NCBI RefSeq assembly: GCF_000507145.1
Contig: NZ_AYTO01000041.1
Coordinates: 248,001 to 312,000 of the forward strand
Direction of reading: 5' to 3'
Length of the DNA: 64,000 bases
Origin: Bacillus tequilensis KCTC 13622
GTDB taxonomy: Bacteria > Bacillota > Bacilli > Bacillales > Bacillaceae
The translations under genes were made by a program, and so were the position numbers. The notes under the pieces are model-generated. The model was not told the DNA's origin. It made no database searches and saw nothing but the letters and a program-made list of their open reading frames with translations. Below are positions 48,434 to 50,138 of the stretch, in pieces. Numbering within the stretch: the first letter of the stretch is position 1; every line of letters starts with the position of its first letter.

Positions 48434-49487
<1,054 letters not shown>

Positions 49488-49569
49488 GTTCCACACCACT
49501 TTTTCTAAAAGCTATTTTGTTTTCTTGTTCGGCCGGACGCCGCTATGTACATAGAAAAAAATCAATCCT

Positions 49570-49598
49570 ATCTTAACATAAAGCATTCTTTCAAACAA
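49570..49598 (-). promoter_or_regulatory. Candidate sigma-A promoter of rsmD-coaD
   Basis: Minus strand -35 TTGTTT (49593-49598), 17-bp spacer, -10 TAAGAT (49570-49575). Nearly back-to-back with the forespore promoter of csfG at 49623. Confidence 0.55.
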
Positions 49599-49622
49599 CG
49601 AACACTCATCTTGATAAACAGG

Positions 49623-49653
49623 TGTATAGCCAGACTGATCCTTGTCCATACTA
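49623..49653 (+). promoter_or_regulatory. Forespore sigma-G/sigma-F type promoter of csfG
   Basis: Plus strand -35-like TGTATA (49623-49628), 18-bp spacer, -10 CATACTA (49647-49653). Matches the sigma-G consensus TGmATA-17/18-CATnnTA closely. Start point expected near 49659. Confidence 0.75.
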
Positions 49654-49656
49654 TTA

Positions 49657-49805
49657 GCAACAGCATCTAGAGGATGTTGTTGCCAACCGCGGAGAAGACT
49701 TACGTTTCCCCATAAGTTCTTCCTCCGGTTTCTCCTCTCCCTTTGCCTTCTCCTTAACATGTTAAGGAATAGAAGGACCCCGCAGATGTCTGCGGGGATT
49801 TTTTT
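49657..49805 (+). ncRNA. csfG: Sporulation small RNA CsfG (Rfam 'ylbH leader' element)
   Basis: Plus-strand small RNA of about 146 nt. Features in order: hairpin 1 GCAACAGCATC / GATGTTGTTGC (49657-49683; a G-U wobble on this strand but a mismatch on the other, supporting the plus strand); long imperfect hairpin 2 (49685-49730) with apical loop CGTTTCCCCA; pyrimidine-rich single strand TCTCCTCTCCCTTTGCCTTC (49731-49750); palindrome CCTTAACATGTTAAGG (49752-49767); terminator CCCCGCAGA/TCTGCGGGG with seven T (49778-49805). No credible ORF is inside. CsfG in B. subtilis is a forespore RNA between ylbG and ylbH, which fits. CCTCC- and CTCC-rich stretches could pair with SD sequences; its target is unknown to me. 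Confidence 0.8.
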
Positions 49806-49811
49806 ATACTG

Positions 49812-50084
49812 CTATATGCCGATTTTATAATCGTATTCTTTTGCTTTATCAAGCTTTGACTCGAATTCCAATTTTAAAAATGGTTTATAAGAAGGCTCCA
49901 CTTTTTTCACAAACGAGTACGATGCGATCTTGTCCATTGTTTTTTCAATCTGGTCCATATCGCAATACAGCACAACATATTTTAAGCGTTTTGATACATA
50001 GTGCACATTTCCGAACTTTCTCAGCATTTTGCTTTGCTTGAGGGAATGCAGATACACAATCATACCCTGGCGCCTATTCTCCAA
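49812..50084 (-). CDS. ylbG: DUF2129 protein YlbG
   Basis: 90-residue uncharacterised protein conserved in Bacillaceae, without recognisable motifs; mixed alpha/beta, basic, with [21 protein letters not shown] in the centre. The TTG at 50084 gives the usual family length and lies about five bases behind AGGTGA; the GTG at 50093 is part of the SD. Downstream of ylbF with a 55-bp gap, probably co-transcribed. Confidence 0.82.
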
Positions 50085-50138
50085 TACAATCACCTGCCTG
50101 ATTTCTCTTATATGTAAAAGACGAGACGGCCAGTCTCG

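Follow-up and report, generated by a model that had tools for sequence, protein, structure and literature searches.

The forespore small RNA CsfG of Bacillus tequilensis: its strand, its core traced into Clostridia, and its possible mode of action

Introduction

Two minus-strand genes, rsmD (ylbH) and ylbG, enclose an interval in the 64,000-nucleotide stretch of Bacillus tequilensis DNA analysed here (the window) that raises the question of which RNA is made there, from which strand, and how this RNA might act. The initial annotation had read the interval as one complete plus-strand transcription unit and had named it CsfG, a small RNA of the forespore. The names rsmD and ylbG are those that we presume from the gene order of B. 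subtilis. They agree with PMC3574147.

Marchais et al. (2011) is said to be the founding paper on CsfG, with a title that speaks of endospore formers. In B. subtilis, passages of PMC9147052 and PMC8216469 describe a forespore-restricted transcript, and the latter places csfG under the control of sigma-F and sigma-G and describes three C-rich regions comparable to those of RoxS and FsrA. A csfG peak is listed at 1569212-1569347 in PMC3574147, where a northern detected only the CsfG strand, RNA of the ylbH strand being undetectable, and where CsfG co-immunoprecipitated with Hfq. The RNA was also found by RNA-seq in B. licheniformis (PMC3871023). The passages on CsfG in PMC9147052 and PMC8216469 know of no established target, in agreement with the initial annotation, and the former reports that disrupting a group of small RNAs that includes CsfG produced no obvious sporulation defect. 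A passage from 2025 credits CsfG, in looser terms and together with another factor, with regulating mRNAs of sporulation, germination, and competence (PMC12456014).

Results

A transcription unit that matches csfG

Sequence, fold, and terminator scan agree on the proposed unit, i.e. a TGTATA-18-CATACTA promoter followed by three stem-loops and a terminator with seven T (Table 1), and both neighbours are indeed on the opposite strand. The fold of 49659-49805, in which the 5' hairpin spans 49659-49681, reaches -53.1 kcal/mol, whereas shuffles average -35.4 (sd 4.1; z = -4.3), and none of 200 dinucleotide shuffles folds equally well. The terminator scan detected the terminator on the plus strand; the sigma-70 scan did not report the promoter, as is expected of a sigma-F/G site. 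Two plus-strand ORFs of at least 30 amino acids in the ORF list touch the transcript (49545-49670 and 49642-49830), and the second of them begins before the transcript is expected to start.

Table 1. Features of the csfG locus in the window and of related phage segments
Feature	Position	Strand	Basis
-35 element TGTATA of sigma-F/sigma-G type promoter	49623-49628	+	sequence
-10 element CATACTA, 18-base spacer to -35	49647-49653	+	sequence, conservation
Expected csfG transcript start	about 49658-49660	+	
CsfG 5' hairpin, outside RF00516	49658-49682	+	fold, consensus pairs
CsfG central hairpin	49685-49730	+	fold; mostly invariant in 36 aligned order-level rows
C-rich region 1, TTTCCCC, in central hairpin loop	49705-49711	+	fold
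C-rich region 2, in central stem of predicted fold	49719-49726	+	fold
C-rich region 3, last 11 nt of core, unpaired between helices	49729-49741	+	fold
Near-invariant pyrimidine core, 23 nt, CTTCCTCCGGTTTCTCCTCTCCC	49719-49741	+	alignment; present in phylum-level loci
CsfG third hairpin, variable in sequence	49746-49776	+	fold, alignment
Intrinsic terminator, 8-bp stem and seven T	49778-49805	+	sequence, terminator scan
Terminator stem; seven T	49778-49797; 49799-49805	+	fold, sequence
Rfam RF00516 'ylbH leader' match	49687-49807	-	covariance model, opposite strand to transcript
rsmD (ylbH), divergent neighbour of csfG	48933-49499	-	ORF list; neighbour kept in relatives
ylbG, convergent neighbour of csfG	49812-50093	-	ORF list
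Phage csfG-core segment	L324:1351-1645; L323:5780-6090 (minus)		

There is hardly any doubt that the element is csfG, the sigma-F/sigma-G forespore small RNA already known from publications. The Rfam family RF00516, the 'ylbH leader' under which the initial annotation had said this RNA was filed, matches the DNA over its full length on the minus strand with 134.7 bits (gathering score 50). It has one copy in the source genome, a copy over the cut-off in all 61 genomes of the set of relatives (source genome included), and a match at 1569199-1569319 in G004, which is probably B. subtilis 168. The B. subtilis gene likewise lies between ylbG and ylbH, and it agrees with the one described here in strand, promoter type, length, and core; it differs in a few bases of loops and hairpins, among which we saw nothing of substance. 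The name, the strand, and the length of about 146 nt are upheld by the Rfam match, by the conservation of promoter and structure on the plus strand, and by PMC3574147. Sporulation control stands as well, but the published control is by sigma-F and sigma-G (PMC8216469), not by sigma-G alone.

Bvs196 of B. velezensis is, like CsfG, a forespore small RNA under sigma-F/sigma-G, but it is a separate gene of 294 nt located between hinT and ecsA (PMC9147052). A match to RF02837 (anti-hemB) with 26.4 bits, against a gathering score of 49.5, was judged to be due to chance. A csfG match next to a YlbG gene was also seen at NZ_CP083716.1:383176-383327, in a B. velezensis record of 807 kb that is classed as a plasmid but is perhaps a piece of chromosome.

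The strand of the transcript

RF00516 is built on the same DNA as csfG, but it models the opposite strand, is labelled as a cis-regulatory leader, and omits the 5' hairpin; the RNA is still filed in this way in Rfam release 15. A model that fits the minus strand superficially speaks against a plus-strand RNA, but both the structure and the promoter are in better agreement with the plus strand. The sequence from the window and those of 35 relatives, 36 in all, were aligned on each strand. They were taken from 55 distinct order-level sequences, 19 of which were left out, including the divergent L051, L053, and L054; the rows L011 and L018 were shortened at the 3' end by a T-run rule. The plus-strand consensus fold reaches -36.3 kcal/mol, and 17 of its 39 pairs show compensated changes, against -24.7 kcal/mol and 8 of 32 pairs on the minus strand. 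In the 5' hairpin, seven of the nine consensus pairs are changed on both sides with pairing kept, and the terminator stem also shows compensatory pairs. The plus-strand helices contain 98 G.U cells versus 14 A.C cells (32 versus 5 in the variable 5' hairpin alone), a count in which 36 of the 98 come from one invariant pair and which is biased towards the plus strand because the structure itself was predicted on it.

Promoter conservation provides a test that is independent of folding. The consensus used for scoring was fixed once the first loci had been seen. A score of at least 12 of 13 upstream of the core was found in 54 of 57 order-level loci (each with 12 or 13), 7 of 23 class-level loci, and 26 of 38 phylum-level loci, two of the 40 phylum-level loci (L174 and L181) being omitted with their core unrecognised. 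Such scores occur in 0.4%, 0.9%, and 1.3% of the respective shuffles, and in none of the loci at any level on the opposite strand at the other side. The low class-level figure arises because many of these loci keep the -35 element and have a different -10 element. With a narrower search region, which does not reach some clostridial promoters, the counts were 54 of 57, 8 of 23, and 15 of 38. Promoter conservation, consensus fold, and the published northern thus favour the plus strand. The Rfam reading of this DNA as a minus-strand leader of ylbH has the strand of the RF00516 match on its side, but the fold, the promoter, and the pattern of base-pair changes point to the strand opposite ylbH, and the northern found that other strand only (PMC3574147), so that we give this reading practically no credence.

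We have just as little reason to think that a short peptide is made here. On the minus strand, GGAGG is followed by ATGGGGAAACGTAAG (49687-49726), and MGKRKSSP is read in 63 of the 105 loci in which the motif was found (117 tried), but relatives do not preserve the frame: it has at most six codons in 14 of the 105, with lengths that range from 3 codons to the script's limit of 80. On the plus strand, the frame 49674-49715, with its ATG at 49674 and 13 codons, is the longest closed ORF inside the transcript. At the order level it stays open to a start in 51 of 57 loci and at the class level in 13 of 23, but at the phylum level in only 6 of 38, and an SD-like 4-mer precedes it in 0/51, 1/13, and 0/6 of these open cases (1/70 overall). 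Conserved residues are accounted for by conserved RNA bases, and the peptides of both strands were rejected, since neither frame is kept across the phylum.

An almost unchanged core in a stable place

The 23-nt core is identical in all 36 aligned order-level rows. Of the first 100 loci, 97 have a recognised core, in 37 distinct 52-nt stretches, and three weak RF00516 matches without it (L055-L057) were excluded. Its 5' part is altered in L053, L054, and L062. Several phylum-level genomes vary in the core, mostly at its GG, and the hairpin arm that precedes it is completely changed. In named genomes, 85 stretches matched an exact 36-base pattern; the 80 listed include Moorella, Tepidanaerobacter, Thermovorax, Fervidicola, Dethiobacter, Alicyclobacillus, and Tumebacillus. 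The core, the promoter, and the place beside rsmD can be followed into Clostridia such as Moorella. Two MAG contigs titled Desulfovibrio sp. (L243 and L313) hold the exact core and are perhaps misnamed or misbinned; in L313, coaD adjoins the core.

By tblastn, rsmD was found in all 100 core-bearing loci (57 order-level, 23 class-level, and 20 phylum-level), divergent and within 600 nt of csfG in 98 of them; in L063 it adjoins csfG in the same direction, and in L095 it lies 2 kb away. Among 20 further phylum-level loci, 17 fit an adjacent divergent rsmD, L169 is without rsmD, and two have no recognised core. In the 80 named loci, rsmD is adjacent and divergent in 72, otherwise placed in one, and not detected in seven. 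Three of these seven had more than 3.9 kb of room: one has coaD adjoining, and in L240 and L267 csfG lies amid other genes. The place of csfG is very stable, and it is not obligatory. The atypical arrangements of L063, L240, and L267 are cases in which trans action could be tested. YlbG, suggested as a partner in a passage of PMC3814617, was found in the 5-kb stretches of 2 of 20 class-level and none of 20 phylum-level loci, and was rejected as a candidate.

The association with sporulation

We compared the presence of CsfG with that of SpoIVA in two samples of 398 genomes each, in counts that ignore the relatedness of genomes and that lose weak CsfG matches to the stricter filters of the CsfG searches. 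In the class sample, CsfG occurs at E 0.001 or better in 230 genomes (193 over the family cut-off) and SpoIVA in 268: 229 have both, one has CsfG alone, 39 have SpoIVA alone, and 129 have neither, i.e. SpoIVA is present in 229 of the 230 CsfG-positive genomes. The phylum sample has CsfG in 149 genomes (only 13 over the cut-off) and SpoIVA in 336, with 147, 2, 189, and 60 genomes in the same four categories. CsfG is hardly present outside genomes with SpoIVA, and many clostridia with SpoIVA have no detected copy. Of the 39 class-level genomes with SpoIVA alone, 26 belong to a single family (f35), in which neither CsfG nor, with as many as 3 mismatches allowed, the core pattern was found. This pattern had three matches in the 40 genomes tried, with 0, 2, and 3 mismatches, the perfect one being in the only class-level genome with CsfG alone. 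The members of f35 are possibly spore formers that lost CsfG; their SpoIVA match is weaker than in most other genomes.

Searches for targets

Simple sequence patterns, used without energy models, revealed no conserved mRNA target. A 23-nt wobble pattern with at most 3 mismatches had 32 sites besides csfG in 12 genomes, versus 20 for a backward control, with no clear series of orthologs at a start codon. Look-alike sites of this pattern were seen in related genomes (G018 on C24, G021 at 2315863, and G027 on C35). The last 11 nt of the core had 82 exact complements in 16 genomes, and 16 of these matches are csfG itself; the other 66 sites compare with 39 for the backward control, half of each being in G061, and purine-rich ribosome-binding sites alone may explain this modest excess. 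The 30 of the 82 sites that were examined (8 of them csfG) included no orthologous ribosome-binding site, and the hits at possible ribosome-binding sites were in single genomes. One look-alike pair of 11-nt sites (L228/L230) appears to lie within a coding region. In one genome only (G006), near the middle of locus L215, an exact complement is placed at the expected ribosome-binding site of an ORF that resembles what we take to be the flavohaemoglobin gene hmp.

Copies of the core in phages

The exact core is also present in two IMG/VR contigs, L323 and L324, to which a looser pattern added none. They share 33 or 34 nt with the csfG of the window, and an integrase gene, truncated in L323, ends about 95 nt before these shared nucleotides; L324 also encodes endolysin and tail proteins. 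The phage core is flanked by GCGCACAA repeats at about -115, -97, -86, +145, and +156, and the obtained stretches hold no copies of this repeat beyond these and one or two adjoining inverted ones. A terminator-like hairpin follows the core in both contigs. Judging from the sequence, a core set between repeats that resemble integrase arm sites is probably an attP site targeting csfG, and it looks as if the phage would restore the 3' end of csfG upon attachment. Alternatively, these contigs may carry a phage-borne mimic of CsfG, since the phage side adds its own hairpin arm. We found no lysogen with a prophage in csfG: relatives of the integrase at E 1e-30 occur in 12 of 220 class-level genomes, and in the seven of them for which a csfG place is listed (G000, G017, G049, G108, G188, G258, and G265) they are not near it. 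A blastn search against 50,697 phage records gave, among the matches listed, only values of E 0.5 to 0.9.

Discussion

Our analysis confirms that CsfG is a known and real small RNA, extremely conserved in spore formers, and that it was rightly recognised from the sequence. What is extended here is the tracing of core, promoter, and place into Clostridia and the link with SpoIVA. We cannot say whether clostridial copies had been reported before; our literature search, which did not extend to Marchais et al. (2011), found no statement on them.

The explanation that we consider best, and probable on the whole, is that CsfG is a forespore small RNA acting in trans through C-rich pairing to ribosome-binding sites. 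It would be a non-coding RNA of about 146 nt, transcribed from a sigma-F/sigma-G promoter away from rsmD and towards ylbG and ending at an intrinsic terminator, whose three C-rich segments would pair with G-rich ribosome-binding sites on mRNAs of the forespore and make these mRNAs less translated or less stable, in the manner of RoxS and FsrA. This mode of pairing is proposed because the C-rich segments are like those of RoxS and FsrA. It is the likeliest mechanism for CsfG, and yet we would put the pairing and its effect slightly short of an even chance. The gene with its strand, promoter, structure, conservation, and link to sporulation genes comes from the present analysis, sigma-F/G control and Hfq association come from publications, and the trans pairing with its effect is inferred. 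By published descriptions, C-rich regions are common to RoxS/RsaE, FsrA, and CsfG, but the former two are other regulators, and the long near-invariant core belongs to CsfG. The persistence of this core in the three roomy named loci without detected rsmD is what a trans factor may show. Several points go against the mechanism: our pattern searches found no target, the core varies less than short seeds would require, in the predicted fold region 2 would be held in a stem, regions 1 and 3 alone being unpaired, and the disruption of the group of small RNAs that includes CsfG gave no obvious sporulation defect (PMC9147052).

The near-invariance of the 23 nt, which short seeds leave unexplained, makes a fixed partner the main rival to short-seed pairing. 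The core would then be a sequence-specific site for one universally conserved forespore partner, either an RNA-binding protein or a structured RNA, which CsfG would sequester or guide, pairing with multiple mRNAs being secondary. The little change of the core from Bacillus to Clostridia while the surrounding hairpins change, and the lack of a conserved mRNA partner in the target searches, are in favour of such a site; it is opposed by the likeness of the C-rich segments to those of proven pairing small RNAs, by the few phylum-level genomes that vary inside the core, and by the passages on CsfG in the literature, which name no such partner. We regard it as a minority possibility, if a serious one. 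Pairing with 16S rRNA is far less credible. A 13-nt piece of the CsfG complement (AAACCGGAGGAAG) is exact in the 16S rRNA of G004, and 13 of the 19 genomes with both sequences readable retain this 16S stretch, although CsfG is different there in two of the 13 (G134 and G592); in the other six, the 16S rRNA has changed at the site and CsfG does not follow, and this absence of covariation led us to reject the pairing.

Action in cis on the ylbG-rsmD-coaD transcript, through antisense pairing or divergent transcription, seems improbable to us, though not to the same degree. The adjacent and divergent rsmD of most loci in all the sets invites the idea, and an RNA reading through from ylbG would be fully complementary to CsfG. 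But pairing in cis requires no conserved sequence and the core is nearly unchanged; the csfG start is upstream of a possible rsmD promoter (a minus-strand match at 49594-49565, of a kind found at chance frequency), so the rsmD transcript need not overlap CsfG; and rsmD has the same direction as csfG in L063 and was not detected in the three named loci that had room for it.

A broader and more speculative scenario, to which we attach a rather low probability, would see CsfG as an ancient, phylum-wide spore RNA whose near-invariant 23-nt core is read not by scattered Shine-Dalgarno seeds but by one universally conserved partner in the forespore, and at whose core some temperate phages attach, bringing their own terminator and so keeping the gene whole. 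The phylum-wide alignment and the correction of the strand show which bases of csfG to test, and the negative target searches narrow the range of its possible targets. The att-like sites of the phages suggest that csfG is a stable landmark, which phages may use without destroying the gene.
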